DNA of 60,548 nucleotides from an uncultured Tropicimonas sp. (lineage in GTDB: Bacteria > Pseudomonadota > Alphaproteobacteria > Rhodobacterales > Rhodobacteraceae): contig CANLZY010000030.1 of NCBI GenBank assembly GCA_947495685.1, forward strand, positions 1 to 60,548. The letters are read 5' to 3'. Below the pieces are notes generated by a model. The model worked only from the letters and a program-made list of their open reading frames with translations. It did not search any database and was not told the DNA's origin. Every line of letters starts with the position of its first letter. Position 1 is the stretch's first letter. A program made the position numbers and the translations under genes. Below are positions 7,201-45,020 of the stretch, in pieces.

Positions 7201-7311
7201 CTTGGATCAATCTCCGGCTGAAGTGTGTTACAGCCGGAAACTGTCAGCAATCGACGATCTGTTCCATTTCATCTGGTCGTAGTCTCCACCCTCCAGATTA
7301 GGGGGTGGAAA

Positions 7312-9499: not shown

Positions 9500-9547
9500 A
9501 GGCTCATAACCTGAAGGTCGTAGGTTCAAATCCTACCCCCGCAACCA
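9500..9547 (+). repeat. attR of island 1 and left end of element 2 (48-bp tRNA repeat)
   Basis: An exact copy of 381-428, preceded by CAGCCCGTG, itself reminiscent of the D-arm region but not a working tRNA. It closes the first island and at the same time encodes the last 13 codons and stop of the serine recombinase on the minus strand. The site is thus shared by two elements carrying different recombinase families. Confidence 0.92.
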
Positions 9548-11222
9548 ACTTTAGCGAACGCTCGTTGATCTCGAAGCCCGGCCCAAGGTCGGGCTTCGAG
9601 CGTTTCAGCATCTCGACAAGATCTCCTTCGACATAGAGCTCATGAAGCGCGCGTTCTTCGTCCCAGCGTACCAGTACACGGTCGATCAGGCGATGAAGCT
9701 CGTCGCCAGCAGCGCCTGCAACGCTTTCTTCGGAGAGTGTCTTGGTCAGGTTGCGAACATACTGCCGATATCTCTCCGGCAAGTCCGAAGGAAGCTCAAT
9801 GGGCGCCGGAACGAGATTCTCTCTTTCCCCGCGCAGTTTCCTGAGTTCTTCATCCGTCTTGTTCAGAGCTTCGATCACCGCAGGCGAAAACTGCCCGTTT
9901 GCGACGGCGTCGAGGAACCCAGTATGACGCTTTTCCAACTCCCGTATCTTCTTGTCGTGGACCAGTAGGGCGTCTTTCGCGCCAGCTTGTTCATCACGAA
10001 GCTTCTTGTTCACCTGTTCTGCGAAGTGTTCGTAGGCCCCGTCCTGCATCAGGCCATGCTCCAGGCAGCCGAGGATAGCGTTACCTGCAGCTGTTTCCAG
10101 TACGCCCGGCATTCCCTCACAGACGGAACGTCCCTTCTCCTTGGCGTTTGCGCAATAGTAGCGGCGCCGCTCGCCTTTGCCGGCCACTGTTAAGTTGCCG
10201 CCACACCGGTGGCAGGTGAGGAGTCCTGACAGCAGGTATTTCCTTCGCCGGACCGCCTGAGAGGCCGATGCTCCACGCGTATCACCCTTTGTTGGCGTGA
10301 TCCCCCCTCGCTTTGCCGAAAGGTCGTCCTGGCGTGTCTTCACGGCCTTCCAGAGTTCGTCGTCGATGATCCGCAAATGTGGCACCTCTTCGTTGAGCCA
10401 ATCGTCCTCAGGCACTGGTCGCGCTACACGTTTTCGCGTGATCGGATGCCTTACGTAGGTCTGCCGATTCCAGACACGACGCCCTATGTAGAGTTCGTTG
10501 TTCAGGATACCGGTTCCGCGCTTGCGGTTGCCATTTATTGTGTTCTGCTTCCAGTGTCCGCTACCTTCGCCGCGTCCTCGTGGAGAGGGAATCCCCGCCT
10601 GATTGAGAGCACCGGCGATCTGAATCGGCGACTTGCCTTCCGCGAACTCGCGGAAGATCCTCTTCACAATCAGCGCCTCCTCGGCAGCGATTTCAAGATC
10701 ACTTCCGTCCGGTTTGCCATTGGCTTTGAAGAGTGGCTTCGGACGGTATCCGTAGGCCCGACCACCGGCACTCTTGCCGTCTTTGACCTTGCCGATGAGA
10801 CCGCGCCGCGTTCTCTGGCTTATAGCTTGTAAGAACTGGCTGCCTTGGATACCTGCGAACCCGACCTTTAAGAGGTCCATTTCTCCTTCGGCAAGCATAT
10901 GTAAGGTTACTCCGGCATACTCCGCGCGCTTGTAGATCTGTGCGCCGTCTTCCGGGTCCCGAGTCAGACGATCCATCGTCTCGGCAACAACGACGTCAAA
11001 GGCGCTTCGATCAATATCCGCCAGAAGGGCCTGGTAGCCCTCGCGGAATGGAGACGCGCTTGTCAGTTGCTCGTCGTGATATTCCTTCACGACGACCCAG
11101 TTTTTCTTCGCCACGAAGTCGCGGCAAAAGGACAGTTGATCTCGGATCGATAGCGGGCTTTGCATGTCGGTTGAGTAGCGTGCATAGAGTGCCACGCGCT
11201 TCGGCGGTTCAATCTCGATCAT
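9504..11222 (-). CDS. large serine recombinase (integrase)
   Basis: A 572-aa large serine integrase. The resolvase domain opens with RVALYARYSTDMQ, where Ser17 is the expected nucleophile, and continues with ETMDRLTRD. A recombinase domain follows (about 180-300), then a zinc ribbon (CHRCGG near 350 with later cysteines) and a heptad-rich coiled-coil stretch. The last residues, GVGFEPTTFRL, are encoded by the antisense of the tRNA-fMet repeat, and the stop codon lies within that repeat. Element attachment at this tRNA therefore completes the gene. It most likely integrates the metal-resistance element to its right. Confidence 0.93.
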   Translation of the reverse strand: MIEIEPPKRVALYARYSTDMQSPLSIRDQLSFCRDFVAKKNWVVVKEYHDEQLTSASPFREGYQALLADIDRSAFDVVVAETMDRLTRDPEDGAQIYKRAEYAGVTLHMLAEGEMDLLKVGFAGIQGSQFLQAISQRTRRGLIGKVKDGKSAGGRAYGYRPKPLFKANGKPDGSDLEIAAEEALIVKRIFREFAEGKSPIQIAGALNQAGIPSPRGRGEGSGHWKQNTINGNRKRGTGILNNELYIGRRVWNRQTYVRHPITRKRVARPVPEDDWLNEEVPHLRIIDDELWKAVKTRQDDLSAKRGGITPTKGDTRGASASQAVRRRKYLLSGLLTCHRCGGNLTVAGKGERRRYYCANAKEKGRSVCEGMPGVLETAAGNAILGCLEHGLMQDGAYEHFAEQVNKKLRDEQAGAKDALLVHDKKIRELEKRHTGFLDAVANGQFSPAVIEALNKTDEELRKLRGERENLVPAPIELPSDLPERYRQYVRNLTKTLSEESVAGAAGDELHRLIDRVLVRWDEERALHELYVEGDLVEMLKRSKPDLGPGFEINERSLKLVAGVGFEPTTFRL

Positions 11223-29918: not shown

Positions 29919-30474
29919 GACAACTCCTCTGGGTTTGCTGGATTTCACCGCATTGAAATCCGGCGAACGCAGAAGGGCGCAGGCGATGGCGGGGGGTTGG
30001 GGAGAGGAGAGCGCAATCTCCTCCCTCAGGAGCCTGGGGGTGTCGGGGGGCGTGCGGAACGCTCCCCGACCCGTCGGAGACGCCCTGTTCGGGTGTCGAG
30101 AGGGGGCAAACGCGGCGAGCAAGTGCCCCATTCGCCCCGCTGGAGGCGGCCGGAAAGTGTGCAGAGAGAGGCGGCGAGCGGTCTCTGCCCGGGGTGTCCA
30201 GAGGGGTGGCACGTCCTATGGTCCGGCTGAAGGCCCCTGGCGGGTGTGGGAGGGCGGCGCACCTCCCGCGCGGCGCGTCAGCGGCGCTCGGGGTCCAGGG
30301 GTGTCCCCTGGCGAACGACAGCCTGTGCACAAAGGCGCGAAGCGCCGACTGCGCAGGCTGTTTAGTGAGTAGAGACCACCGCGCACCCCATCATACCGGC
30401 CCTTCGAACAACGCGATTTCCGGATCCCGATTGTCAGCAACATCTCCTGCGCTCCGCCGCTCCAGGAGATGCAC
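29919..30474. other. intergenic, upstream of the relaxase
   Basis: About 550 very G-rich bases between the transposase and relaxase genes. I see no gene. It holds the IS200 left-end hairpin (29941-29960) and the inverted repeats described as an oriT candidate at 30295-30358. Confidence 0.6.
30295..30358 (+). other. candidate oriT: clustered inverted repeats
   Basis: Two adjacent structures lie about 110 nt upstream of the relaxase start. One is CCAGGGG (30295-30301) with CCCCTGG (30305-30311). The other is an outer stem GCCTGTGCA (30321-30329) with TGCGCAGGC (30350-30358), one wobble, enclosing GGCGC (30334-30338) with GCGCC (30342-30346). MOBV-type nick regions are inverted repeats upstream of the relaxase gene. 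No conserved nick sequence was identified. Confidence 0.45.
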
Positions 30475-31821
30475 ATGCCCGCCGAACCATCCACCGATTT
30501 CCCCGTTGTCCTCCGCTTCGAGGGCATGTTCCCCGCCGATCTCGGTGGTTTCGAGAAACACCGCACCCGCAAGGGCGGCGACCTCGGACATGTCGACAAG
30601 TCGAAGAGCGATTTGAACCGTCGGCTTCACGGGAAAGAGGACTGGGCGGAACGCACGCTTGCGGAGATCGAAGAGATGAAGGCGGAGAACTTCACCGACG
30701 AGATCGAGACGCTGACCCGGCGGCGGCGCAAGTCGGAGCTGCAAAAGCGCATCGTCGAAGGTCCGCGCGATCCCTGGCGGGCAACCCGGCACGGGCCGAT
30801 GCGCGAGGTGATCCTGACCGCCAACCGGAAATGGTTCGACGAGATCGAGGACCTGGGCGATTGCATGGTGTTCGACAAGCGCGAGCGCGATTTCGAGACG
30901 CTCGCCCTTGCCTGGCTGAAGTTGAACTTCGGCGACGACATGGTTCATGCTCGGGCGGATCTCGACGAGACCGCCTATCACATCCACGCCGTCATCGTGC
31001 CGAAGGTCCAGGTGAACCTGAATGGCACCAAGCGGTGGATGCTCCAGCCCTCGAAACACATGGCGGTAAAGAAGTACGAGGCGGCGCAGGACAGCGTCGG
31101 TGTGTGGTTCTCCACGCTCGGCCTCTGTCGTGGCGAACGCCGCGCCGCGGCCATCCGGGAGGCGCGCCTGGCGGGGGAAATACCGGATCAGAAGCTCTAT
31201 CGCCACCATGTCCGCACGGTCGATTGGCGCAAGGCGGAGGACACGCGGCTTGTCGAGAAAGGTCAGGATCTGGACAAGCGCGAAGAGGATCTGGCGGCCT
31301 CGAAGAAGTTGCAGTCGTCTCGGCAAGAGGTCATCGAAGCCCGCGAGGCCGCCGTTGAGGTTCGCGAGACCGCCGTGGATGCGCGCGAGGACGATGCCGA
31401 CGCGATCCTGGCGGTGGGCGAGGCGATTTCCAGCGGGCAGTTCACGATCGAGACTGACACGGACGACCCTGACACGCCGCGCCTTCGAAACGCACCCGAT
31501 GCCAGGCCCGGCATCCTGGCGAGCCTCAGGGCACGCATGGACAAGGCTCCCGGCGCCGTGACACGGGCGCTTCGGGTCTTCTCCGGCGCGTTCTCCAGGC
31601 TACGGGAGGATGCGAAGACGGAAGCACGTGCCGAACTTGAGCGCGACATCGACGAGATCCGCCGCGCCGATGACAGCATCGTGGAGATCGCGTCTCATCT
31701 CCCCGAACCCGAGCGTCGAGGCCTCGCGCAGATCCGCAAGTCGCTCACCGCGCGCATCCTGTCCCTGACCGGCGGGACGAGCGGACCCCGGGCCCGGGGC
31801 GATGGTTCGAAGAAGCGATGA
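30475..31821 (+). CDS. MOBV/Pre-like relaxase
   Basis: A 448-aa mobilisation protein. Mob_Pre features: the N-terminal HRTRKGGDLGHVDKSKSDLN block (about 29-48) and LDETAYHIHAVIVP with the HxH metal site (about 169-171). A long Glu/Arg-rich coiled-coil stretch (about 265-330) follows. I start at the second ATG (30475), since AGGAG ends directly before the first, leaving it no spacing, and is 6 nt from the second. It would nick oriT so that the element can be mobilised by a helper conjugation system. No type IV secretion genes are in the window. Confidence 0.8.
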   Translation: MPAEPSTDFPVVLRFEGMFPADLGGFEKHRTRKGGDLGHVDKSKSDLNRRLHGKEDWAERTLAEIEEMKAENFTDEIETLTRRRRKSELQKRIVEGPRDPWRATRHGPMREVILTANRKWFDEIEDLGDCMVFDKRERDFETLALAWLKLNFGDDMVHARADLDETAYHIHAVIVPKVQVNLNGTKRWMLQPSKHMAVKKYEAAQDSVGVWFSTLGLCRGERRAAAIREARLAGEIPDQKLYRHHVRTVDWRKAEDTRLVEKGQDLDKREEDLAASKKLQSSRQEVIEAREAAVEVRETAVDAREDDADAILAVGEAISSGQFTIETDTDDPDTPRLRNAPDARPGILASLRARMDKAPGAVTRALRVFSGAFSRLREDAKTEARAELERDIDEIRRADDSIVEIASHLPEPERRGLAQIRKSLTARILSLTGGTSGPRARGDGSKKR

Positions 31822-32407: not shown

Positions 32408-33283
32408 TGCCAGCGGCGCTCGTAGTCGGATCGAGTCCAATCTACACTTGACGCATGGGCTCCACTCCCAGCGTTGCCGTTCGCCAAAGACCAAATCCCA
32501 CCCCCGCAACCGGATTTTCAAGTAAAGACAGACACTTACGGACGCGCCCGCAACGGCGCTCGTAAGCTGTTTTCTCTTGCTCACCACTTGCTCACCAAAA
32601 AGCCCGTTCTCCAGACGCAGTGTCGACATCCGCGCCAAGCGCACCGTATCACAGGCGAATCGGTCGTGTGGGGAAGCGTGCTAGATGTGGCGGAACTCGA
32701 CGGTTTGAGAGCGGCTCGGTCCTGCTGTTCCCCAGTTGAAAGCGTGAGAACGGAGATCGTTGCAAGCTCAGCCTGCTATTCCCGCCACTCGCGCGGAGAG
32801 GTGTGGAAATGCACGCGCAGCAAGGGGGATGGGGCGGGCATGTTTCATACCGGACGTTGAAGGAAGGCGCGGCGAACATCCATGAAGAGCCGATTGTGTA
32901 GAACAACTCGGGTTCTCGGCTATTTTGGAACATTTTTGAGCGTACAATCCCGGTAGGAGTTTTCGGCTAAGGGGGGCGACTAAATCTGCCCACGAACGCA
33001 ACGAGAGAGCCGAAAGGTTCGCGCTATGTTCACCCACTGAGCTCACCGATCTCCAAACGCGGTAGCCCGGGGGCAAACAGGAGGCCAAGCATCATGAGAC
33101 AGTTCTGAAAAAGTCGAAAGCCATTTCCTTCGGCGGCCTGCGCATTCCGACTTACATGTCAGAAACGAGAGAGACAGGCCTCCTAAGTAAGTACTTGGCT
33201 CGAATGACCGATGATCCAACTGTGCTGGGGGCAAAGTGCCACACTGAACCCAAGTGCCACGTTGAAGCCTAGACCTCCAATGG
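32408..33283. other. intergenic, possible element boundary
   Basis: Nearly 900 bases without a convincing gene, between the mobilisation genes and the AT-rich operon. It contains the att-like sequence at 32492-32511. Composition shifts from GC-rich to AT-rich within this stretch. The promoter of the operon must lie in its right half; I see no clear boxes. Confidence 0.6.
32492..32511 (+). repeat. candidate att remnant (near copy of tRNA-fMet 3' end)
   Basis: CAAATCC, C, ACCCCCGCAACC: 19 of 20 bases match the T-arm and acceptor end of the tRNA repeats at 381-428 and 9500-9547 (C instead of T at 32499). The rest of the tRNA is absent, so it is not a tRNA gene. If it is the far attachment site of the serine-recombinase element, that element spans about 9.5-32.5 kb. 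Confidence 0.55.
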
Positions 33284-34015
33284 GTGAACAACTACCGTCT
33301 ATTTATGGTGTTAAAGTGCTCACACACGTCCATCCTGTCTCAGGATAGCAGGGAGAAACTGCACTACGAGAGTGTGTGGTCCGCCCCTTCCGCCGGGTCG
33401 AACATTGGCAATCAGCAGCCGCAGTACCTTTCTAAAGTCGGGCGCTCCTCTCTAAAGCCCATTTTGGAGCGAATTCATCGGAACAATAGGGGTCAAGGTA
33501 AAGGCACGACGGGCCTTCTGGACGTCGGCTGCGGAAATGGTAGAAACTCATTTCTCGCAGCATCGATAGGTTTCAGCGTTGATGCGCTTGACATTTCCAG
33601 TTCAGCAATCGAGCTGGCGAAAAATTCCAGACCTGACGCTGACATCCGGTTCTTAAACACATCATTTTTTGAATTCGCGGCGCCAGATGAAGGCTATGCA
33701 GCCATACTTGATGACGGTTTTTTTCACCACCTCCGGCCGGCCTGCCATGAGTACTATGTTGAAAAAATTCGTCAATTACTTCGGCCAGATACTGGCAGAT
33801 TCATTCTTGTGCACCTTGTCGACACAGAGTCAAATAGAGCACAGAGGCATTACATTGACGATCCCAACGCTATACACTTCACTAGACTATACAAGCCAGA
33901 AAACATCAACGAGATTTTCTCGACACAGGGTTTCACAACACTGAAGGTGGAGCCTGATGCCGACGCCTCCGGAAGAGAGTTTTCTATACACTTATTAAGT
34001 GCTGTTCATGACTAA
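33284..34015 (+). CDS. class I SAM-dependent methyltransferase (inositol operon, gene 1)
   Basis: A 243-aa methyltransferase. The SAM motif I is LLDVGCGNGRNSFLAASIGF (about 78-97), followed by DALDISSSAIELAKN with the Asp that binds the ribose. Motif-post regions (DDGFFHHLRP, LLRPDTGRFILVHL) are normal for small-molecule methyltransferases of the UbiE/TehB type. The frame opens with GTG at 33284; an ATG at 33305 is the other possible start, neither with a strong ribosome-binding site. The stop overlaps the glycosyltransferase ATG by 8 nt. Substrate unknown; perhaps the product of the downstream enzymes. Confidence 0.88.
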   Translation: MNNYRLFMVLKCSHTSILSQDSREKLHYESVWSAPSAGSNIGNQQPQYLSKVGRSSLKPILERIHRNNRGQGKGTTGLLDVGCGNGRNSFLAASIGFSVDALDISSSAIELAKNSRPDADIRFLNTSFFEFAAPDEGYAAILDDGFFHHLRPACHEYYVEKIRQLLRPDTGRFILVHLVDTESNRAQRHYIDDPNAIHFTRLYKPENINEIFSTQGFTTLKVEPDADASGREFSIHLLSAVHD

Positions 34016-36347
34016 TATTTGTTTCATATGTAGTTCTTGGTCTTCAGGAAATGGAGGCATAGAAACAGTGAACCGGGAGCTAAGTGAAGGTCTGGCACGC
34101 GCTAGGCCTGAATGGAATATTTTTTGTTTCGTTGAGCGCGCAACGGTCGAAGAGATATCGGCGGCCAATGAGAAAAGCGTTAAACTTATCCCGACTGATG
34201 ACAATCACTTGGGCGCATTCGTAAAGGTGAAATCAATTAGACCTGACGCAATAATTGGCCACTCCCACATATCCGGCGGCGCGGCAAATTATCTTGCAGC
34301 AGCTAGTGAAACTCGATGGGTGCAATTCGTGCATCACGATCCGGAAGACACCGAAACCTTCAAGGAGTATCGAGTTCAAAGAGTTTTGGAGCGGGAGAAT
34401 CGATCAAAAAGAGAAGTTCAATTTGCAATCGATGCGGACGCCGTTGTTTGCATTGGCCCTCGACTGTTTCGTGAGTTTGACCACAAGATATCTGCTAGTA
34501 CTGGATCTCGCACATCACAAATGCTACAGATCGATTGTGGCTTTCGACAAAGACCGCGTGGCTATATCCCAAACTCACTGGAAATCCTTTCTTTGGGAAG
34601 GTCTGACAGCCTCAGAGTGAAAGGGCTCGATGTAGTTGCGATGGCCGCAGGGCTACTGAATGGCAAGATCGCCGATGCAGACCGGACCGTAAGATTCAGA
34701 ATTCGGGGCGCCAAAGGAGATGCGGATGCTCTCGAAGCGGAGCTGGTTGCGAAAGCCAACGAGGCGTATCCAAGCAGTAAAGTCAAACTGAACGTCCTTC
34801 CATACAGTACGGACGCGGGTACGCTCCGAACTGACCTAAATCGTTCCCAACTTTTCCTAATGCCATCGAGAGCGGAGGGATTCGGTTTGGTTGCTATGGA
34901 AGCGCTATCTGGAGGTACTCCTGTCTTTGTCTCCAGGGAATCTGGAGTAGGTGAGCTAATCGAAGCTGCTTGCACTGACATCGGCATTCCTTCGGATCGA
35001 TTCGTCGTTCCAATGGATTCCAATGATAGGGAGTGCGCTGAGACATGGGCTGAAAAGATCGCAGAGTTCTGGAGAAACAAGGAGCAATTTCATCGAGAAA
35101 CGGGTCTTCTTCAGGATTGGCTTGCTGAGCATTCTAGCTGGAAGACCGCTTCAGAAAGTCTCGCCGAGTTCTTGCAATCTAAGGTCATTGAAACCCCGGC
35201 GATTGACGCCACCGTCCCCACGATTCCGCACGATCCAAAATCGGGCGCTCTCATCGATATACCTTTCGATTATATTGTAGAACGGAAACCCGAAGATGTA
35301 TCGGGATTCCTTTTGCGAACCATCGCATTCGAGAACTACTCGGAAGGAAGGAAGAATGCGGATAGGGGGGACTGGCAAAAATCATACTACTATCATCTCA
35401 GGGCCTTTGGAGTTTGGCAGGCATTAGAAGAAAAAGACCAGTGCGCCAGATCGCTTGGGCGGTTAGGTTGGGTACATCTGGCCCTTGGCAACAGCGGCAA
35501 GGCGCTTGAATTTCTCAATCGTTCAGTTGAAATTGACGCACTGCAAGGAGCAGGCAACCTGTTCTGGGCAGCGCAGTATGCCTTCCGAACAAGCGATGAG
35601 GAACTTGCCGAGACCGCGTTGGAGCGCTTTGTCCAAGTATGTCTCGAGAACGATATCGTGAGACCTACGCCTGAAGACCTTTCATCGCCGGAATCCGCCC
35701 AGCATTTCATTGAACGGTTTTATCGTGAACTCATCGAACGACAGAGGACACGGCAGCCTTCCGCAACGCCATGGTCAGACATCGGCAGACATGAACTGAT
35801 ACGAGCCAACATCGAAAGAGATCCGTCGCAGTCAAGGGAAGCACTGATCAGCGCAATCGAAGCCTTCGACGTTTGCGGCCTGGCTTCATACAGCTCATTT
35901 TGCCGTAGCAAGATCTCTATGTTGGATGCTTATCAGTGTGCATCTGATCCAAAAAGGGCGCTAGAAAAACTTGGGGAAGCCAGATTGCATCTTCAATCGG
36001 TTACACAGAAGTTTGGCCAACAAACGGAAGTCTTGCTGTGCTACGAGTACTCAATGGACATCATTGAGTCTTGGTTTCAAACAAAAGTAGATCCAGCAGC
36101 GAGCAGGAAGCCGTTGGAGGTCGTCAAACGGAAAGAACAAGTCAAACTTCTTGAACGCCCAGAGTATCAACAAGCTCTGCGCGGCATCGTCGAGGCTTTA
36201 GGACCCGACGGGGCAGCCAAGAGTTCTGTTCCGGTCGCTGAAGCGATCATGCAATTTCAAAGATTGCTACCAGATCTGGAAGGCTTTTACTGGCCAGTGT
36301 TGGGCGGCCTTCTCCTTAAAGAACTAACCCTCAGGAGGAAACAGTGA
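34008..36347 (+). CDS. GT4 glycosyltransferase with TPR-like C-terminal half (inositol operon, gene 2)
   Basis: A 779-aa protein. Residues about 1-390 form a GT-B glycosyltransferase of family 4: SSGNGGIETVNRELSEGLA near 15-35 (acceptor loop), and the donor site RAEGFGLVAMEALSGGTPV with the E-x7-E pair at about 290 and 298. The remaining half is helical. About 440-600 carries TPR-like repeats (KSYYYHLRAFGVWQ, AFRTSDEELAETALERF), fitting a protein-binding scaffold. I start at the ATG at 34008 because it overlaps the methyltransferase stop. GT4 includes MshA, which glycosylates inositol phosphate, so an inositol acceptor is possible here. Confidence 0.85.
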   Translation: MTNICFICSSWSSGNGGIETVNRELSEGLARARPEWNIFCFVERATVEEISAANEKSVKLIPTDDNHLGAFVKVKSIRPDAIIGHSHISGGAANYLAAASETRWVQFVHHDPEDTETFKEYRVQRVLERENRSKREVQFAIDADAVVCIGPRLFREFDHKISASTGSRTSQMLQIDCGFRQRPRGYIPNSLEILSLGRSDSLRVKGLDVVAMAAGLLNGKIADADRTVRFRIRGAKGDADALEAELVAKANEAYPSSKVKLNVLPYSTDAGTLRTDLNRSQLFLMPSRAEGFGLVAMEALSGGTPVFVSRESGVGELIEAACTDIGIPSDRFVVPMDSNDRECAETWAEKIAEFWRNKEQFHRETGLLQDWLAEHSSWKTASESLAEFLQSKVIETPAIDATVPTIPHDPKSGALIDIPFDYIVERKPEDVSGFLLRTIAFENYSEGRKNADRGDWQKSYYYHLRAFGVWQALEEKDQCARSLGRLGWVHLALGNSGKALEFLNRSVEIDALQGAGNLFWAAQYAFRTSDEELAETALERFVQVCLENDIVRPTPEDLSSPESAQHFIERFYRELIERQRTRQPSATPWSDIGRHELIRANIERDPSQSREALISAIEAFDVCGLASYSSFCRSKISMLDAYQCASDPKRALEKLGEARLHLQSVTQKFGQQTEVLLCYEYSMDIIESWFQTKVDPAASRKPLEVVKRKEQVKLLERPEYQQALRGIVEALGPDGAAKSSVPVAEAIMQFQRLLPDLEGFYWPVLGGLLLKELTLRRKQ

Positions 36348-36772
36348 TTCAAGACTGCATTCTGTGCAATCCCGCCCCCGAGAACCTGATCTACCGTGAC
36401 GATAAAGTCGTGGTTTCGCATTTTCCGTCGGCTGTTAAGGCTGGCCATGTGATTGTGGGGATAGCCTCCCATATTCGCTTGTTAGAGGATGCTCCGATGG
36501 AAGAGTTTTTGGCGGCGGGCCGTGCACTGAAAACGATTTGCGAAACGATGAAAGGCATATTGGGTTGTGAAAGATTCTATATCTTGTCAGTTGGAGACCG
36601 AGACCATCACTTTCATTTTCACGTGATTCCAAAGTACGAAAGTGATCCGGTGTTTGGGCCACACGCATTTTCGCCCGCCGGCTGGGCTGGATCACTAAAC
36701 ACCGATCCGCCCGTACCGGCAGATCCAAATCTCAACCAAAAGCTCCACGATTTTCTGTCGAGCACTGACTAA
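36344..36772 (+). CDS. HIT-family nucleotide hydrolase/transferase (inositol operon, gene 3)
   Basis: A 142-aa HIT protein. It opens with a C-x-x-C (DCILCNP) often seen in HIT proteins and has the catalytic triad DHHFHFHVIPKY (H-x-H-x-H) near 85-95. The start is GTG, overlapping the glycosyltransferase stop by 4 nt, with a perfect AGGAGG 5 nt upstream. HIT enzymes cleave or transfer nucleotidyl groups such as AMP from dinucleotides. Next to a nucleotidyltransferase it may work on a nucleotide-activated intermediate. Substrate not predictable from sequence. Confidence 0.9.
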   Translation: MIQDCILCNPAPENLIYRDDKVVVSHFPSAVKAGHVIVGIASHIRLLEDAPMEEFLAAGRALKTICETMKGILGCERFYILSVGDRDHHFHFHVIPKYESDPVFGPHAFSPAGWAGSLNTDPPVPADPNLNQKLHDFLSSTD

Positions 36773-36792
36773 GTGAGGACTGAGAATAGAAA

Positions 36793-37350
36793 ATGAAGAC
36801 TTTACTGGTTTGCGGGAGATTCCAGCCGTTCCATAATGGACATCTCGCGTTCGTTTCGAAGGCCTCAAAAATGCACGGAGGCCCCATCATAATCGGTATA
36901 ATAATTAATTCGCTTCACGCAGCCTCCGGGAAGGTCCAAAACCCGCTGGGCGACGCAGGTGACGAAGCTCAAACGCCAAAGAAAAATCCATTCTCGATAT
37001 ATGAACGTCTTGCGTGTATTCGCGAAATTGTCGCTGGTACTGATTTTGCTGATAGATGTGAAGTTACAGCTTTCCCTCGGCCGGAACTCTATTGGGAGCT
37101 GGTCAGTGGGATTTGCAGTAGTGAACGCGTGTGGGCACTGCCAGGTATTCTTGATAGCTTTGATCAGAAAAAGTTTGACTTCTACCGGAGTCATGGCGAC
37201 GAAATTCTTTCTATCTCGGATGAACGATTCACCTCAGGTACGGAAATCCGTAGACTGGTTAGATCAGATCCGGAGAAACTCAAGAAACTTCTTCCAAGGC
37301 CCTCCTACAAACTGGCAATGAAGCACTTTAGCAATGTGGAATTAGGCTAA
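36793..37350 (+). CDS. NadM/NMNAT-like nucleotidyltransferase (inositol operon, gene 4)
   Basis: A 185-aa protein of the HIGH nucleotidyltransferase superfamily. GRFQPFHNGHL (about 8-18) holds the H-x-G-H nucleotide-binding motif. NPFSIYER (about 68-75) and SGTEIRRLV (about 149-157) match archaeal-type NMN adenylyltransferase (NadM). It should join a nucleotide monophosphate to a phosphorylated substrate, releasing pyrophosphate. NMN is the family's usual substrate, but an operon devoted to inositol makes a sugar or inositol phosphate possible too. Start 20 nt after the HIT stop, with no intergenic space before the next gene. Confidence 0.85.
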   Translation: MKTLLVCGRFQPFHNGHLAFVSKASKMHGGPIIIGIIINSLHAASGKVQNPLGDAGDEAQTPKKNPFSIYERLACIREIVAGTDFADRCEVTAFPRPELYWELVSGICSSERVWALPGILDSFDQKKFDFYRSHGDEILSISDERFTSGTEIRRLVRSDPEKLKKLLPRPSYKLAMKHFSNVELG

Positions 37351-38514
37351 ATGCGCGCTGGAATCTTGATAGTTGGCCTCTCGGGAGCAACAGCCAACAC
37401 GTTTGCTACTTCGCTCGCCCTCGCCGGCGATCCGACCCATCGTGTTTTCGGCGCGCTTTCGGAGAACGAAGAGTTTTCACATCTTGGACTAGCACGCTGT
37501 GACGATGTCGTCGTATCTGGATGGGACTTTTCTTCACTGTCCGTTTTTGAGAGTGCTACACAGTTTGGAATTATCCCTCATAGTCTCATCGAGAATGCTC
37601 AGAACCGGCTTGGGGTTAGGCCAAAGCCAGCCGTTGCTTCGAGGCAAGACCCGGAATTACTGACAGAGAAAACTCAGGTACGAGAATGCTCAAATTATGT
37701 TGAGGCGGTTGAGGAAATTCAGAATGACATTGAAGAATTCAAAAGCCTAAACCAGCTCGATTTCTGCTTAGTTCTGAATCTCATTTCTCCGCAAAAAGAG
37801 TTTCCAAGAGCCATTTTGAGCGCTTCCGGGCGGGCAGATTTCGAAAATGGTATAAATCAGCAAGGCAAAGGCAACTTCCCGGCCTCACTTGTTTACGCAC
37901 ATGCTGCGATACGTACGGGCTGCGGGTTCATAGACTTTACAACTGCACAGTCTCTGGAAGTTCCCTTCATTCAACGGCTCAGCGAGGAACGCACTGTGCC
38001 CATTGCCGGTAGAGACGGAAGCACGGGACAAACATACCTGAAACTTGGATTGGCAACACTGCTTCGTTTGAGAGGTCTTAGGATTGAAGGTTGGTACAGT
38101 GCAAATATTCTCGGAAATCAAGACGGTTTCGTTTTGACGCAGAACGAGTTTGATCAAGTGAAGAAGAAAGACAAAACCGAGAGCCTTAACGAGTTCGCGG
38201 ACCTCTCGGATGAAAACCATGTTGTCGATATTTCGTACTACCGACCTAGAGGCGATAACAAGGAGGCATGGGACTCGGTAGACATTTCAGGATGGTTTGG
38301 TCTCGGAATGCAGATGAAGATCAACTGGATTGGGAGAGATTCCATACTGGCTGGGCCTTTGCTGCTAGACCTGTGCAGGTTTTCGTTGCACTCGCTAGCT
38401 ACTGGAGCATATGGGGTCCAGAACCAGCTAAACTTCTATTTCAAGAGTCCGCTTGAGCGCCGCGTTTTTTCTCCTTTTGAGGAGTATCGAGCCCTCGTTT
38501 CTTACTACTCTTAA
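37351..38514 (+). CDS. myo-inositol-1-phosphate synthase (inositol operon, gene 5)
   Basis: A 387-aa NAD-dependent inositol-3-phosphate synthase. Family blocks are all there: a nucleotide loop GLSGATANTF near 9-18, VVSGWDFSSL near 53-63, RTGCGFIDFT near 189-198, the active-site block AGRDGSTGQTYLK near 218-230, YSANILGNQDG near 248-258, and a C-terminal GPLLLDLCRFSL. It turns glucose-6-phosphate into inositol phosphate. Such enzymes are uncommon in proteobacteria. The ATG directly follows the upstream stop. The length is that of prokaryotic members. This gives the operon its likely starting metabolite. Confidence 0.93.
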   Translation: MRAGILIVGLSGATANTFATSLALAGDPTHRVFGALSENEEFSHLGLARCDDVVVSGWDFSSLSVFESATQFGIIPHSLIENAQNRLGVRPKPAVASRQDPELLTEKTQVRECSNYVEAVEEIQNDIEEFKSLNQLDFCLVLNLISPQKEFPRAILSASGRADFENGINQQGKGNFPASLVYAHAAIRTGCGFIDFTTAQSLEVPFIQRLSEERTVPIAGRDGSTGQTYLKLGLATLLRLRGLRIEGWYSANILGNQDGFVLTQNEFDQVKKKDKTESLNEFADLSDENHVVDISYYRPRGDNKEAWDSVDISGWFGLGMQMKINWIGRDSILAGPLLLDLCRFSLHSLATGAYGVQNQLNFYFKSPLERRVFSPFEEYRALVSYYS

Positions 38515-38538: not shown

Positions 38539-38793
38539 TCAAGCGATCTGTCTACATGTTGGACTGAATTGAAACGCCAACCGCACAGCGAACATTTGCC
38601 CAAGGTCGGTAGTTTCCGCATCTCGTTCATTGGTCCAATGTCCGGCGAAGGTCCGGAGTCGGCCCCTGCGATCACGCAGGGGCGTGTAGAAGGCGATCCA
38701 GCGAGGGAGACCGGTGACCGGAAAACGACCCTGCCAGTTCTCGCTCTCATGGATCACGGTCGAACCGTCTGCCGACAGGCGCGCGAAGGTCAT
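38539..38793 (-). CDS. small protein coupled to the DNA methyltransferase
   Basis: An 84-aa protein whose ATG overlaps the methyltransferase stop by 4 nt (ATGA), which is why I accept it. Residues such as SENWQGRFPVTGLPRWIAFY do not match a family I know. It is the leftmost gene of the leftward prophage transcript and stops 24 nt from the opposing inositol-phosphate synthase gene. Perhaps a regulator or specificity partner of the methyltransferase. Confidence 0.6.
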   Translation of the reverse strand: MTFARLSADGSTVIHESENWQGRFPVTGLPRWIAFYTPLRDRRGRLRTFAGHWTNERDAETTDLGQMFAVRLAFQFSPTCRQIA

Positions 38794-39869
38794 GCCCCCA
38801 GCTCCGACAGTTCCCGCCGCACATGGTCGATCCGGGCGCCGATCCACTCCATCGCGTTCACGGCAATGGAATTGCCCAGCGCCCTGTAGCGCGGCCCATT
38901 GGGCGTCGTGTCGCGGCCCCGGTAGGGCACGTCCGTCCAGCCATCGGGAAAGCCTTGCAGGCGTTCGCATTCGAGCGGCGTGAGGCGACGGACCGCCCAG
39001 CGCGTCCCGCCACCGGCGTGGTGCGACTGCGCCAGCGCGATCATGTTGTAGCACTCGTCGCCGGCCGGCCCGCCCGAGCCCTTTGCCCATTTGCTGCTTA
39101 CGGTTCCGGAGATGCGACCGCTGTCAGGGCCTCCGCCCACAAGACCGGCAATTTCCTTCCCCGCTTTGCGGCGCGGCGGAGGATCCCAGCGCAGGCTCGC
39201 GCCGTCAAAAAGTACCGCGCCAGCAGGTCGCCAGTCTCCAGAATATCCGACAACGAACAGACGACGGCGTCGCTGCGGGACAGCGAAGGGGAGGCCGCAT
39301 GTTCGCACGTACTGAGCGTCCAGCACTCGCCAGGCGAACCCATACCCGAGTTTCGCCAGCGCCCCGAGGAAGGCACCAAAGTCCCGTCCGCGTCCGCTTG
39401 ACAGGATTCCGGGCACGTTTTCCCAGACCAGCCACTCGGGCCGATAGCGTGCAGCAATGGCAAGATAGACAAGGGCCAGGTTGCCGCGCGGATCGTCCAG
39501 GCCCTTGCGGAGTCCGGCGACGCTGAAGCTCTGGCAGGGGGTTCCTCCGACCAGAAGGTCAATTGCTGCATCCGGCCACTCCCTGAACGCCGTCATGTCC
39601 CCGAAATTCGGAATGCGGCCTGTCTCGGGAACGGTGGACATGGCCCTGATGGCGTTCGCGCGGGCGCGGCTTTCCTTCTGCGACAGGCCCGCGGCCTCCG
39701 GGAAAGGCATGTGGAGCGGCCGTCCCGCGCCCAGCCGGTGGGAGAGAACGTGGCAGGGAAACGGGTCGATCTCCGACACCGCGATCGCGCGCCACCCGAA
39801 CGGCTCCCAGGCGACCGACGCCGCCTCGATACCGCTGCACACGGAAAGGAATCTGACTGGCTCGAACAT
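38790..39869 (-). CDS. phage C5-cytosine DNA methyltransferase
   Basis: A 359-aa DNA (cytosine-5) methyltransferase with the motifs in order: SVCSGIEAASVAWEPFGW (I, SAM binding) near 9-26, GGTPCQSFSVAG (IV, catalytic Cys) near 107-118, ENVPG (VI), QRRRRLFVVG (VIII), ECERLQGFP (IX) and RALGNSIAV (X). No partner endonuclease lies nearby, so it is a solitary phage enzyme that probably protects phage DNA from host restriction. A stretch between motifs I and IV (LSQKESRARANAIRAM) is typical of phage members. Confidence 0.93.
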   Translation of the reverse strand: MFEPVRFLSVCSGIEAASVAWEPFGWRAIAVSEIDPFPCHVLSHRLGAGRPLHMPFPEAAGLSQKESRARANAIRAMSTVPETGRIPNFGDMTAFREWPDAAIDLLVGGTPCQSFSVAGLRKGLDDPRGNLALVYLAIAARYRPEWLVWENVPGILSSGRGRDFGAFLGALAKLGYGFAWRVLDAQYVRTCGLPFAVPQRRRRLFVVGYSGDWRPAGAVLFDGASLRWDPPPRRKAGKEIAGLVGGGPDSGRISGTVSSKWAKGSGGPAGDECYNMIALAQSHHAGGGTRWAVRRLTPLECERLQGFPDGWTDVPYRGRDTTPNGPRYRALGNSIAVNAMEWIGARIDHVRRELSELGA

Positions 39870-40025
39870 GCCAGCAGGCTGCAGATCCGGATGGGGTGGC
39901 GCATGGCAACGCCCTCGAAAATCTGTGCCACCCGTGGAAAATCAAAGGGTTGGCATATTCGCGGCAGAGTGAATCCAGAGAAACCGGCAGCCGCAGAAAT
40001 GCCTGCCCGACGCTGGTCGTGGTTG

Positions 40026-41102
40026 TCAGCCCACTTTCGCGCCCCAGAACGATGTGTGGTCCGCCGCGAAATACCCGTCCGCCGCCCGGAAATACCCCTG
40101 CAACTCGACGGTATCGCCCGCGCTGAGCGCCACCATGGTCTGCAGCCAGAGCGCGGTGGCCTCGGAGACATGCGCGCCGGAGTTTTCGCCGAAGGAGCCC
40201 TTGATCTCGGTCGAGCCGTTCAGCACCAGTCGCCCGCGCATCCGGGAGGACGTGCTGGCATTCGTCTTGAACAAGAGCGTCGCCCCAAAGAGGTAGGTGC
40301 CGTCGACGGGAGCGACGAAATAGTTGTTCCCGGCATCGAAGGCGCTCTGGTCGTTGTAATCGGTGTTGTTGATCGCAATCTTCGTCCAGGAATCGACGCC
40401 GACATAGTTGTCGTAGTTCGTATAGCCCTTGAAGCGGGGAAGGCGCGGCTGCTCGATGACGCCGGTCAGGCGGTCCACGCTGAAGGCATCGAGGAAGGTA
40501 CTGCCGTCGTCGGAGACCGCGAGCCGGAAATCATCCGAGCCAAAGAGGCCCAGAAGGGCCTTCGTCACGTAGCCGGTCTGAAGCGTGAGACCGAGATCGT
40601 CACCCGCCGCCTCCTTGTTCATGGTGTAGTAGAGATCGCCGGTTCCGCCTTCGGAGGCGCCCAGCGCCGTCCAGAGCGCAGCGTTCAGTTTGGCCGAGAA
40701 GGGATTGGACGCATCCGCCACGGTGCCGATGCCGAGCAGCCCCATGTTCTGCAGTACGGTGGGCAGGATGCTCACCCAGGCCGCGCCATCCCAGACCAAG
40801 AGCACGCCCTCGTCCTCGATCCATACCCGCCAGCCTGGTCGCGGCGCGAGCCGGGTCCAGACACCATCGACAAAAAGCACTACGCTCAGATCCCAGCCCG
40901 CCCAGTCATCCGTTGCGCCGGCACCGACGATGTATCGGTCGCCGTCCGTGGGCGAGACCGGTGGTGCGGCCAGATCCCGGTCGATCACCGCCATCTGCAC
41001 CAGCCCGTCCAGCAGCCGGAGGGACTCATTCAGGGTGACATGCTTCTGCGCCTGGCTCGCCAGCAGATAGGGCAAAAGGAGGTTGGTGGTGGCGTCGGAC
41101 AT
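40026..41102 (-). CDS. DUF2793 tail fibre with C1q-like C-terminal domain
   Basis: A 358-aa protein. Residues about 1-130 match the DUF2793 family found at the end of GTA-type tail modules (LLLPYLLASQAQKHVTLNES; GDRYIVGAGATDDWAGWD). From about 235 the sequence changes to a C1q/TNF-like jelly roll (NYFVAPVDGTYLFGATLLF; SAGDTVELQGYFRA), a fold used in trimeric receptor-binding tips. Likely role: tail fibre contacting the host surface, with the head domain giving specificity. Lies 12 nt from the GTA-TIM gene. Confidence 0.85.
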   Translation of the reverse strand: MSDATTNLLLPYLLASQAQKHVTLNESLRLLDGLVQMAVIDRDLAAPPVSPTDGDRYIVGAGATDDWAGWDLSVVLFVDGVWTRLAPRPGWRVWIEDEGVLLVWDGAAWVSILPTVLQNMGLLGIGTVADASNPFSAKLNAALWTALGASEGGTGDLYYTMNKEAAGDDLGLTLQTGYVTKALLGLFGSDDFRLAVSDDGSTFLDAFSVDRLTGVIEQPRLPRFKGYTNYDNYVGVDSWTKIAINNTDYNDQSAFDAGNNYFVAPVDGTYLFGATLLFKTNASTSSRMRGRLVLNGSTEIKGSFGENSGAHVSEATALWLQTMVALSAGDTVELQGYFRAADGYFAADHTSFWGAKVG

Positions 41103-41114
41103 GGGCGGAGCCTT

Positions 41115-44100
41115 CTAGAAGTAGATGGTGACAGTTTTTGGCGCCCCGCGCCCGACGAGGGCGGAGAGCAGGTATATGCGAATGGTGAGGCTGTCGCCGG
41201 GACCGAGCTGTTCGCCCCAGTCGGCGGTCTGCTGGGCGGAGGTGTAGACGACGCTGGTGGTGGTGGCCGAAAGGGTTCGCTTGACGACCGAGCCGTCGAG
41301 GATCTCCAAGTCGTAGGCCTCCATCTGCTCGGACATCGGCACCTCAAGCGCAGCCCAGCTGTCGGCCGAAAGCGCCCGTGATCGCCGAACCCAGCGGATC
41401 GTCAGATCACCGAGGCTCCTCGGCGTCCGCCAGGGCTGCTCGACATGCGCGACAGAGAACGGCCGCAACCCAGCGCCAGAGGGCGTGAATGTCTCTGCCA
41501 CATAGGTGTCACCGGAAACGGGATGGCTTGCCGGGCCGATGCGCCAGTTCCAGGCGATGCCCAGCTCCGCCTCCGAGACCGGCAGGGAGGCGAGGCTCGC
41601 ATCCAGCACCACCACCCGCGCCCCGGCCGGCGCCGGATTTCCGATGGCATGCTCGGTGCCGCGCTGGCCGCGCAAAAGCCGCGTGAGCCGATAGCGCCCC
41701 TCCGCCAGAAGCTCGGCCGTGCCCGCCTGGACGATTTCCCAGGCGCCGGCTGAGGACTCTACGGCAAACGCATTCGCCCCGGCAAAGAGGTCGAGATCGG
41801 TGACCGAGCCGAGCGTGCCAGAAGCCAGATCGACGATCAGCTCATTGCCATGATCGAAGCGCGAGACCGGTCCAGACCAGAGATCGGACACGAGGACCCC
41901 TATCTGCGCGGGAAGCGTGATGCCGGTCAGCCAACCGAATCCATCGTCGGACGCGGAACGCCAGACGGCGATCTCTCCGGGCCATGGGGCAGAATAGGCG
42001 GCGACCAGCGGACGATGTGGGGCCACATCCTCGGAGATCTGCGGAAGATCGAGCAGGGCCACCACCGGCTCCCCGAACACCACCGGCACTTCCGGTGTCG
42101 ATCTCCGCGGCGTGCCCGGCGCCAGTGTCCCGGTCGTGCGATCCTGCCGGATCACCTCGACATTCCGCGCCTCTCCATCAGCGACCGAGGTCAGGCGGTA
42201 TTCGGTGAAACGCCCGTCATGATCGAGCCCGATCACATCTGTCGGATCCAGCGCGAGCCGCGAAGGCGGGAGCCGGAAACTCGCCGTCTCGCGTCCGACC
42301 CATGCCTCCATCAGCGCGCGGCGACAGCGCCGCTCAGCCTCTTCGGCCGGCACCGCCATGGGAAAGGACTCGCTGCTGATCCGCGAAGACTCGACCGTGA
42401 TGCGTCGGGCTTCGACCACCACCGCATCGTAATCCTCATCGGCCCGTGTGACGCTCCACTTCAGAGCCTGCGGCAGTTCCGTCTCCTGAGCGCGGGTCAG
42501 CTCGATCGGCTCGCCGGTATCCGCGGCAACCAGATCGTCGAGGGAGAGCGTCGCCACAGCAGCGCGGCCCCGCATGAAGAACCGGATGACACCCTCGCTC
42601 TCGACCGCATCGAAACCGAAATGCCGCCCCAGCGTGGTCAGCGCATTGCGCGGTGCCTCGAGCGAGGTGATGGCAAAACCCTCGATCGCGCCCCAGAGGC
42701 CGGAGACATCGATCTGATCCTCCGCCAGTCCGGCCCGGAGGCAGAGATCCCGCACCAGCGCGGCAAGCGAGGCGGAACCGAGGCGGCCGGTGAGCCAATG
42801 GCCCAGCCGCCAGTTCTCGCCATCGCTCCAGACATCGGTCAGTTCGGGGAAGAAGGGATAGGGTCGCGCATCCCAGGTCCAGGCTGCGCAGTCCGCCACC
42901 TCGACCATCCGGCTTCCGTAGACCGAAGAGACCGGGTTGTTCGCCGCCTCACCCCAATACAGGAGGGTTGCTTCCAGATACGCCCGCTGGATGGCATCGT
43001 CGCGCCATCCTTGAGAGAAATACGGCAGCTCGCTCTCCGAGGATTTCGGATCGTAGAAAACGTTCGGCTGGTTGGTGCCCCGATCGATCGCCGGGCATCC
43101 GATCTCCGTGAACCGGATAGGCTTGGAATCTGGCACCCACGCCGTCGCCGTCACGGACTCGGCACCACCCGGCCGATTGTGATGCCGGTTCGACCACCAA
43201 CTCCAAAGATCCTTGTAGCGGAAGACCCAGGGTTTGCCGGCAGCGCCATCGGTGATCGGCGTCCGCACCTGCGTAGAGCGATCAGCGTCGGTGGCATAGA
43301 ACCAGTCGTAGCCTTCGCCGCCGGCGATGTTGGAGCGCAGGTAGTCGCGATCGTAGATGGCCGGCCAACCCGCCACGGCATCAGTGTGCTCGAACCCGTC
43401 GCGCCAGTCGGAGAGCGGCATGTAATTGTCGATGCCGATGAAGTCGATCTCCGGGTCGGCCCAGAGCGGATCGAGGTGGAAGAACACGTCCCCCGTGCCG
43501 TCGTCCGGATGATGCCCGAAATACTCCGACCAGTCGGCCGCGTAGCTGATCGCCGTGGTCGGTCCGAGGATGGCACGCACATCGGCAGCCAGCGCCCGCA
43601 GCGCCTCCACGGCCGGGTAGCTGGCGGCGCCATCGCGGATGGTGGTCAGGCCGCGCATTTCCGAGCCGATGATGAAGGCATCGACCCCGCCCGCCGATGC
43701 GCAGAGACTGGCATAGTGCAGGACCATCCTCCGGAAGCCCCAGATGCCGTCGAAGAACGCGGCGACCTGATCCGCGGCCTCGGCGGTCTTGTCGACCGAC
43801 CCCGCGGCACCCGCCGCCGGAGAACAGGTGATCCGGCCGCGCCAGGGGAAGGCCGGCTGGCCCGTTCCGGCGGCATTGTCGGAATACGGATCCGGCAGGG
43901 TGTTGTCCGCCGGCACGTCCATCATCAGGAAGGGATAGAAGGTCACCCGCTTGCCGCGCGCCTTCAGCTCCTGGATCGCCTGCACCACCGAGAAATCCGC
44001 CGGCGTGCCGCCATAGACCGGGCGGCCTTCATCATCGCGGGAAACCAGATGCGCCGCGTCGCGGGTGACACCATTGACCTCCCATGTCTTCGGCTTCGTC

Positions 44101-45020
44101 GATTTCGAGCGGAGCTCGACACCCGGCCGGATCCGGCATTCCCCGCATCGCAGATCATCCCCGAACCACGAGACGACCAGGCTCACGCTTTCGACATTCG
44201 GCGCCGAGGCCTCCAGCCTATCGAGCGCCTCCACCATGTCGGGCGTTCCCGAAGAGGCGTTGAGGTTCTCCGCACCATTGCTCTTGCGGATCGCCTCGCT
44301 TGCGTAGACGAACTCGCCCGAGGCCGGGATCAGCGTGATCGCCCGTACCAGCCCCTCGGCGGTGTCGGCCTCGGCCAGCGGTCGAAACACCTCGACATTG
44401 ATCTGCGGAATGCGGTTGCCGAACCCCGTCAGTTCCAGATCCTCGAACACCAGATAGGCGGTGCCGCGATAGGCCGGTGTATTGGCCGCACCAGACTTCG
44501 CCGCCATGAAGGGATCAGGTTGCTGGCTTTCACTGCCGGGATACCAGCGCCAGGTCACGCCGGAGAGATCCATCAGCGCCCCGTCCGCCCAGATGCGCCC
44601 CACACCGGTGATCGGCCCCTCGCAGATCGCCAGCGCGAAGGAGGCAAAGTAGAAGTATTCGGTGGTCTTCACGGTATTCCCGCCGCCGCCACCCTTGCCG
44701 CCACCGCCCTGGGTGGTGGTTTCCTTCTTCTCCCGGAAATCCGTGGCCCAGATGATATTGGCGCCCATCCGCAACCGACCCCAGACGCGCGGCAGGACCG
44801 TGCCCTCGGTGGCGGAGGTGACATGCAGCGTATCGAGGCGCTGCCCCTCGAAGCTCGAACTGGAGCCCGGCGTGAGCGCGGAAATGATCCAGCTGTCGAC
44901 ATAGGAGCCGATGGTGGAGCCGATGAAACCGCCGATCGTAGCGGCGCTGACACCGAGGATTGCGCCGCCGATGGAACCGCCGATGGCGGCGCCGGCCGCA
45001 CCAAGCACGAGGGTGGCCAT
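41115..45020 (-). CDS. GTA-type TIM-barrel baseplate/host-specificity protein (gp15-like)
   Basis: A 1301-aa giant tail protein. A glycine-zipper membrane-like N-terminus (about 1-45) is followed by a polar loop region. A glycoside-hydrolase-like TIM barrel occupies about 400-750 (VDAFIIGSEMRGL and similar strands), and the C-terminal third is a tail hub and receptor-binding region. This order is that of Rhodobacter GTA gp15, whose barrel sits at the tail tip. Start near the NlpC gene stop (3-nt gap). Length is in the family's range. Confidence 0.93.
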   Translation of the reverse strand: MATLVLGAAGAAIGGSIGGAILGVSAATIGGFIGSTIGSYVDSWIISALTPGSSSSFEGQRLDTLHVTSATEGTVLPRVWGRLRMGANIIWATDFREKKETTTQGGGGKGGGGGNTVKTTEYFYFASFALAICEGPITGVGRIWADGALMDLSGVTWRWYPGSESQQPDPFMAAKSGAANTPAYRGTAYLVFEDLELTGFGNRIPQINVEVFRPLAEADTAEGLVRAITLIPASGEFVYASEAIRKSNGAENLNASSGTPDMVEALDRLEASAPNVESVSLVVSWFGDDLRCGECRIRPGVELRSKSTKPKTWEVNGVTRDAAHLVSRDDEGRPVYGGTPADFSVVQAIQELKARGKRVTFYPFLMMDVPADNTLPDPYSDNAAGTGQPAFPWRGRITCSPAAGAAGSVDKTAEAADQVAAFFDGIWGFRRMVLHYASLCASAGGVDAFIIGSEMRGLTTIRDGAASYPAVEALRALAADVRAILGPTTAISYAADWSEYFGHHPDDGTGDVFFHLDPLWADPEIDFIGIDNYMPLSDWRDGFEHTDAVAGWPAIYDRDYLRSNIAGGEGYDWFYATDADRSTQVRTPITDGAAGKPWVFRYKDLWSWWSNRHHNRPGGAESVTATAWVPDSKPIRFTEIGCPAIDRGTNQPNVFYDPKSSESELPYFSQGWRDDAIQRAYLEATLLYWGEAANNPVSSVYGSRMVEVADCAAWTWDARPYPFFPELTDVWSDGENWRLGHWLTGRLGSASLAALVRDLCLRAGLAEDQIDVSGLWGAIEGFAITSLEAPRNALTTLGRHFGFDAVESEGVIRFFMRGRAAVATLSLDDLVAADTGEPIELTRAQETELPQALKWSVTRADEDYDAVVVEARRITVESSRISSESFPMAVPAEEAERRCRRALMEAWVGRETASFRLPPSRLALDPTDVIGLDHDGRFTEYRLTSVADGEARNVEVIRQDRTTGTLAPGTPRRSTPEVPVVFGEPVVALLDLPQISEDVAPHRPLVAAYSAPWPGEIAVWRSASDDGFGWLTGITLPAQIGVLVSDLWSGPVSRFDHGNELIVDLASGTLGSVTDLDLFAGANAFAVESSAGAWEIVQAGTAELLAEGRYRLTRLLRGQRGTEHAIGNPAPAGARVVVLDASLASLPVSEAELGIAWNWRIGPASHPVSGDTYVAETFTPSGAGLRPFSVAHVEQPWRTPRSLGDLTIRWVRRSRALSADSWAALEVPMSEQMEAYDLEILDGSVVKRTLSATTTSVVYTSAQQTADWGEQLGPGDSLTIRIYLLSALVGRGAPKTVTIYF

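Follow-up and report, generated by a model that had tools for sequence, protein, structure and literature searches.

A prophage-borne operon in an uncultured Tropicimonas sp. sets a GT4-conflict glycosyltransferase beside candidate inositol-nucleotide genes

Family 4 glycosyltransferase (GT4) domains of the GT4-conflict family are predicted to act as effectors against invaders, and many of them are fused to STAND NTPases; they are reported from bacterial and invertebrate immune-type proteins. The GT4 section of the paper that describes them names no tested substrate, and the word inositol has no occurrence in its main text (Kaur et al. 2021, PMC8195603). The operon considered here consists of five genes in a 60,548-nucleotide stretch from an uncultured Tropicimonas sp. 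of the Rhodobacteraceae (GenBank assembly GCA_947495685.1, contig CANLZY010000030.1, positions 1 to 60,548; hereafter the window). It resembles the described systems in that its glycosyltransferase falls in the same family far over cut-off, keeps the EX7E residues and lies in a mobile context, but here a TPR region follows the GT4 domain in place of a fused STAND or AP-GTPase module, and the accompanying genes encode a myo-inositol-phosphate synthase (MIPS), a HIGH-type nucleotidyltransferase, a HIT-family protein and a methyltransferase.

The combination of MIPS with a GT4 glycosyltransferase also recalls the first steps of mycothiol synthesis, MIPS (Ino1) and MshA, and the initial annotation had likened the glycosyltransferase to MshA. 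That comparison fails because the enzyme belongs to the GT4-conflict family: it scores 29 bits with the NCBIfam MshA model TIGR03449, whose cut-off is 462.5, and a mycothiol reading was rejected; the mycothiol INO1 model likewise scores far under cut-off on the operon's MIPS (15.3 versus 638 bits), and no MshB, MshC or MshD model is among the matches listed for the five genes. CTP:inositol-1-phosphate cytidylyltransferase, which serves in the formation of di-inositol phosphate and inositol lipids, is of the MobA-like sugar nucleotidyltransferase type. The product of MIPS would likewise become nucleotide-activated inositol here, but the operon's enzyme is of the HIGH type, with a fold like that of pantetheine-phosphate adenylyltransferase (PPAT) and nicotinamide mononucleotide (NMN) adenylyltransferase (NMNAT). 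NadM shares with it the HxGH and SGTEIR motifs and the fold; the difference is that the operon's enzyme falls short of the family cut-offs and adjoins MIPS. As for the MADS defence system, gene 1 has a methyltransferase stretch that matches Mad2 in PADLOC (E value 7e-16, over 104 of 492 profile positions) and, weakly, MTase_II, but the profile is covered only in part and genes 2-5 lie outside the PADLOC families; the multi-gene Mad set is absent, and we rejected membership.

The five genes are as follows.

33284..34015, + strand: class I S-adenosylmethionine-dependent methyltransferase (gene 1), 243 aa, GTG start, LDVGCGNG motif, Pfam Methyltransf_25
33999..36347, + strand: GT4-conflict glycosyltransferase with TPR match (gene 2), 782 aa, GT4-conflict at aa 9-388, PF20706, TPR_12
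36344..36772, + strand: HIT-family protein (gene 3), 142 aa, HFHFH triad, Pfam HIT
36793..37350, + strand: HIGH-type nucleotidyltransferase (gene 4), 185 aa, GRFQPFHNGHL and TSGTEIR, CTP_transf_like, adenylyltransferase-like fold
37351..38514, + strand: MIPS (gene 5), 387 aa, NAD_binding_5 and Inos-1-P_synth

All five genes are genuine; they are closely packed and rich in AT, and every catalytic motif that was checked is intact. The glycosyltransferase gene starts at 33999 or at an alternative ATG at 34008, the latter giving the 8-nt overlap with the methyltransferase gene that had been described initially; the further packing (a 4-nt overlap between GT4-TPR and HIT genes, a 20-nt gap to the nucleotidyltransferase gene and a 0-nt gap from there to MIPS) agrees with the initial annotation, as do the five family identities, each gene exceeding the curated Pfam cut-off for its assigned family. 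The operon is indeed AT-richer than both neighbours, with a G+C content (GC) of 0.49-0.51 per kb at 33-38 kb versus 0.60-0.67 on either side (28-33 and 39-45 kb, in 1-kb bins); in all five frames GC is highest at the first codon position and lowest at the second. A single transcript is favoured by the 4-nt overlap of the GT4-TPR and HIT genes and by the strand and low GC that the five have in common.

Gene 2 matches PF20706 ('Family 4 Glycosyltransferase in conflict systems') with 293.3 bits against a cut-off of 26, over positions 2-385 of the 385 in the profile, and its C-terminal region matches TPR_12 with 36.8 bits at aa 455-513. Both glutamates of EX7E, which we take to be the catalytic motif of GT4 enzymes, are present (E293 and E301) and are conserved in a Rhizobium relative; every surface-glycan or MshA model of NCBIfam remains far under cut-off. 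Eight records of a plasmid collection hold a GT4 match, the top ones being Rhizobium proteins (H41 and four records of equal score), and the neighbourhoods of two of the eight were opened. In one of these (L032, 4284-9197) a Rhizobium protein of 1637 aa carries a GT4-conflict domain at its C-terminus (378 bits) and gives weak sub-cut-off matches to NACHT/NPHP3 at its N-terminus; it lies two genes from an integrase, and its architecture resembles the STAND-GT4 layout set out in Kaur et al. 2021 (PMC8195603). A phages collection, queried with the GT4, MIPS and nucleotidyltransferase proteins only, gave two matches (H59 and H60), with no record matching GT4, and a viral scan with GT4 confirmed no relative. 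Outside the window the best GT4 match among 289 genomes of the class reached 32 bits, and none at E 1e-10 was found among 398 genomes of the phylum (the samples overlap, and both counts include the window's own genome).

The MIPS exceeds the cut-offs of both of its Pfam domains (PF07994, 112 bits; PF01658, 92 bits). Its residues K271, K275, K304 and K365 align with K274, K278, K306 and K367 of the Archaeoglobus enzyme (chain 1u1i) and are invariant in nine sequences; we take these four lysines of 1u1i to be catalytic, our literature search having yielded no paper that states so. Their retention supports the initial proposal that the enzyme would yield inositol phosphate. The usual GKDxKTGQT is replaced by AGRDGSTGQT, and among the scanned loci the RDG[SN]TGQT form recurs in the Arthrobacter plasmid pZXY24 (L030), in two planctomycetes (L050 and L051) and in a deltaproteobacterial metagenome-assembled genome (MAG; L065). 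In a tree from which a motif filter had dropped five of 80 loci (L052, L053, L055, L114 and L125), these four proteins and that of the window split from 85 others with support of 100/96; we do not claim shared ancestry for the five because three are very long branches. The window's genome has no second MIPS that we could find, and three of 288 other alphaproteobacterial genomes sampled hold a strong match. Neither a viral scan with MIPS nor a first scan of genome contigs with MIPS alone confirmed a relative; a second contig scan found at least 472, of which the best 80 were kept, and among the 44 plasmid records with MIPS six neighbourhoods were opened. On pZXY24 (5792-9819 of its locus) unknown proteins and a HIT gene accompany the RDGSTGQT-type MIPS in what is a parallel to the operon: the HIT gene stands two genes upstream of MIPS, and next to MIPS, on the opposite strand, is a MobA-like nucleotidyltransferase.

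Gene 4 scores 31 bits with Pfam CTP_transf_like, over the cut-off, and misses the cut-offs of archaeal-type NMN-adenylyltransferase by a factor of at least 4 (NF002243, 31.1 of 127 bits; TIGR01527, 28.7 of 181.2). The initial label 'NadM-like' thus stands for fold and HxGH motif and falls for the family itself. A two-row AlphaFold model (predicted local distance difference test score, pLDDT, 76) matches PPAT and NMNAT in fold; the best sequence match in the PDB is MJ0541 (1f9a, labelled a hypothetical protein), presumably an NMN adenylyltransferase, and the best by profile is the NMN adenylyltransferase 1ej2. Matches to solved NMNATs fall mainly at the two ends, in the HxGH and SGTE(V/I)R stretches. 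The window's genome encodes two further CTP_transf_like proteins, which read as CoaD and NadD, and because it has these apparent enzymes besides, the cargo nucleotidyltransferase is not taken for a housekeeping enzyme; ordinary NAD salvage was rejected on this point and on the unmet cut-offs.

A two-row profile of the nucleotidyltransferase gave no match beyond the window in 248 family genomes (E 0.001) or 289 class genomes (E 1e-5; overlapping samples), and in a search of 40 relatives with the protein the window's own genome was the sole match. Among 40 viral loci with homologues, 39 gave a match, and none matched the other four proteins (E 0.01); a viral pattern match (L137) falls within an 807-aa frame, by its sequence apparently a tail tape-measure protein, which matches none of the operon's five proteins and was set aside. 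Neighbourhoods were opened for four of eight plasmid records, and for one of five found through the L065 nucleotidyltransferase. Plasmids of Halobaculum and Rhodococcus (L130, 3957-8600; L131, 3952-8528; L217, 4666-8862) carry mutually similar operons in which a HIGH nucleotidyltransferase is joined by an acyl-CoA dehydrogenase-like protein, a SelD/AIRS-like or unknown protein and a metallophosphatase-like protein. On Rhodococcus opacus pKNR (L132, 829-5737) a nucleotidyltransferase of the same family is followed by a phosphoenolpyruvate/pyruvate-binding protein and a radical SAM gene.

The deltaproteobacterial MAG (L065) carries a nucleotidyltransferase gene directly upstream of MIPS, overlapping it by 4 nt, so that the gene order is that of the operon. 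The two nucleotidyltransferases share 31% identity over 160 aa (73.6 bits), with a likeness that takes in PRPEL and a large part of the 40 residues after it, where archaeal, rhodococcal and viral relatives are only patchily conserved; the two MIPS share 38% (223 bits), and both have AGRDGSTGQT. This one instance is our main evidence that the two enzymes form one pathway, and it speaks for a unit of two genes whose nucleotidyltransferase may act on the MIPS product. The nucleotide-activated intermediate suggested in the initial annotation is fitted by this pair in another genome, and the product of the two-gene pathway is probably a nucleotide-activated inositol. By eye, the neighbours of the pair in L065 are peptidase-like and repeat-rich, secreted-looking frames, which suggest no larger operon.

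The methyltransferase scores 48.3 bits with Methyltransf_25 (cut-off 27). The HIT protein scores 31.1 bits (cut-off 21.5) and has the HFHFH triad, which places it in the HIT superfamily. Kinship with the HIT protein of pZXY24 was considered and kept as a lead only (21% over 48 aa, 15.0 bits), two HIT proteins found away from other operon genes scoring above it (38.5 and 34.4 versus 15.0 bits); both of the two plasmid HIT records had their neighbourhoods opened.

The location of the operon is the second argument for a conflict role, and three flanking features define it.

32492..32617, + strand: attachment-type boundary, 20 nt like the 3' end of tRNA-Met (95%) and about 106 nt conserved in relatives
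38790..39869, - strand: C5-cytosine DNA methylase (Pfam), end of the prophage late genes and right flank of the cargo slot
40026..45020, - strand: prophage tail genes (DUF2793; GTA_TIM/Rcc01698-type tail protein; Pfam)

In a genome of the same genus (G295), about 5.8 kb without a blastn match to the window is flanked by two sequences that the window shares: the prophage end (88% over 3.6 kb, window 38662-42269) and the 126-bp boundary (86.5%, window 32492-32617). This alternative cargo (L168, 3720-8930; the one of five flank regions fetched in which both sides of the slot are visible) encodes a SASA esterase and GTP cyclohydrolase II-like, P-loop kinase-like (a weak Mad8 match) and dCTP deaminase-like proteins; it too is AT-richer (50-57% GC at 5.5-9.5 kb), except at its esterase end. 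The G295 boundary begins inside a complete tRNA-Met, of whose end the window keeps about 20 nt at 32492-32511. The intact tRNA-Met of the window lies at 352-428, and a 57-nt direct repeat of its 3' part (96%; 373-429 and 9492-9548) bounds an island that carries an integrase (8165-9403). From this single comparison genome we infer a stacking of elements at tRNA-Met, with the operon in a cargo slot of a prophage whose far end lies beyond the contig. It thus looks like mobile cargo, as had been proposed, and the earlier placement 'between two mobile elements' is roughly right, the right-hand one being the end of the prophage late genes and the left-hand one a tRNA-Met-type boundary. The first island carries, at 1123-4139 and about 29 kb left of the operon, a DRT9-type reverse transcriptase (523 bits) overlapping a reverse transcriptase-associated SLATT gene, likely a known anti-phage system, with a DEDDh/RNase_T exonuclease gene on the other strand. 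Left of the operon, at 30469-31821, lies a MobV-like relaxase gene (52.8 of 100 bits, under the NCBIfam cut-off).

We tentatively favour, with a probability of roughly 0.35, a conflict operon carried by a prophage, in which nucleotide-activated inositol phosphate either feeds the GT4 effector or is what this effector acts on. The label of a conflict system is based on gene 2 and the location, and that of inositol-nucleotide chemistry on genes 4 and 5 and the single outside pair. Gene identities, motifs, packing, location and that pair are observed; the substrates, the order of steps and a defence activity are inferred. MIPS, to judge by its conserved catalytic residues, would form inositol 1-phosphate from glucose 6-phosphate and NAD+, and the HIGH nucleotidyltransferase, given its pairing with MIPS, would couple this to AMP or CMP, AMP being the likelier because the nearest folds and sequences are adenylyltransferases. 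The GT4-conflict enzyme would then be the effector, either using the nucleotide-activated inositol or glycosylating inositol phosphate or an invader target, with its TPR tail as sensor or scaffold; the HIT protein could hydrolyse the nucleotidyl compound and so keep the system off or reset it, and the methyltransferase might tailor or cap the product. The narrower form of this proposal, in which a nucleoside diphosphate-inositol made by MIPS and the nucleotidyltransferase is the donor or signal for the GT4-TPR effector and HIT is its off-switch, we regard as rather doubtful.

Several observations weigh against a conflict operon of this kind. The effector role of GT4 is itself a prediction in the literature (Kaur et al. 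2021, PMC8195603). No sensor module (STAND NTPase, AP-GTPase, MoxR-vWA or caspase) is found among the five genes, only TPR standing beside the GT4 domain, in a prophage whose remainder was incompletely scanned; PADLOC has no family match for genes 2-5, a promoter scan upstream of the operon showed no excess (3 found versus 4.6 expected), and the single-sequence structure model of the GT4-TPR protein (pLDDT 40.5) was unusable and not used. The L065 nucleotidyltransferase (61 bits, E 5e-17) is the sole clear relative among the best 80 of at least 472 MIPS loci, the next (L074) having E 0.078; it is nearest to the window's by path in the tree, where the grouping is not resolved (64/76, long branches), and the 17 kb of L065 contain no HIT or GT4 match. 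The relatives in Halobaculum and Rhodococcus reach 70 and 55 bits, sub-cut-off, with NMN-adenylyltransferase models. When the five proteins were compared with 207 fetched loci besides the operon's own (E 0.001; many with about 1.5 kb of flank), no locus held three or more of them, so that the five genes have not been seen together elsewhere, a finding that the initial annotation had named as telling against it. Three loci held two: L065, with its adjacent pair; L073, where a GT4 match of 17 bits stands about 6 kb from MIPS; and L133 (2239-8537, a Halorussus plasmid), where a methyltransferase match of 31 bits lies about 4 kb from the nucleotidyltransferase, on the opposite strand. The fetched loci gave no convincing outside link of GT4, HIT or methyltransferase to MIPS and nucleotidyltransferase. 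Because none of the 207 holds three or more, the link of the pair to the other three genes is drawn from operon structure alone; that the five form one system is unproven, and outside support extends to the two-gene core only. In L133 this methyltransferase adjoins a glycosyltransferase without a match to the window's, and the two share a stretch of 6.3 kb with a nucleoside monophosphate kinase and the HIGH nucleotidyltransferase.

The main rivals are a metabolite made for lysogenic conversion and a pair of unrelated cargo units. Each of the five genes could plausibly encode a biosynthetic enzyme, and one could envision a lysogenic-conversion or specialised-metabolite cassette whose product, a glycosylated and methylated inositol compound used as surface decoration or small metabolite, benefits the lysogen without any sensing or killing. 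Some other plasmid MIPS loci do lie in biosynthesis-like clusters (with YcaO, Gfo/Idh/MocA and PIG-L in Hymenobacter and Roseomonas, and with sulfotransferase and DegT in Arthrobacter), and the related nucleotidyltransferases of Halobaculum and Rhodococcus sit in metabolic-looking operons. However, the glycosyltransferase is of the GT4-conflict family, with a TPR tail and with surface-glycan and MshA models far under cut-off, and no transporter is encoded among the five genes; we consider this explanation possible, if tentative. The only adjacent co-occurrence seen outside, that of nucleotidyltransferase and MIPS without GT4, would be expected if the GT4-conflict-TPR and methyltransferase genes were one passenger and the HIT, nucleotidyltransferase and MIPS genes a separate metabolic module, and pZXY24, where HIT, an unknown protein and MIPS occur with no GT4 match in 17 kb, points the same way. 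The 4-nt overlap between the GT4-TPR and HIT genes, the common strand and the low GC of all five argue against such a division, which we hold to be unlikely.

Alternatively, the nucleotidyltransferase could be an NMN adenylyltransferase that refills NAD+, with the NAD-dependent MIPS merely alongside. Its GRFQPFHxGH motif, its best PDB matches (1f9a and, by profile, 1ej2) and its PPAT- and NMNAT-like fold would suit this role, but scores of 31 and 28.7 bits are far from cut-offs of 127 and 181, the NMNAT structure matches cover mainly the two ends, the genome has an apparent NadD of its own and a nicotinamide-salvage partner is absent from the five genes, which makes an NAD-centred system improbable. 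Least probable of all is that passenger genes with no function in common came together by chance: the five-gene set is unseen in the other fetched loci, as such a gathering would predict, but the close packing with its overlaps, the uniformity of composition, the intact motifs and the pairing of nucleotidyltransferase and MIPS in L065 speak against it.

Our literature search, with most subscription journals outside its scope, found no defence system with nucleotide-activated inositol chemistry and, among the papers listed, none with such a gene set, and the terms GT4-conflict and ADP-inositol had no matches in the literature searched. The operon appears real, rare and unusual, and the predicted union of a conflict GT4 with inositol-nucleotide genes is its interesting part. 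With its own source of inositol phosphate and a nucleotidyltransferase beside it, a GT4-conflict enzyme gains a concrete candidate donor or acceptor; if the proposal is true, inositol chemistry, which is seldom found in the alphaproteobacteria sampled, would have been recruited by a prophage.

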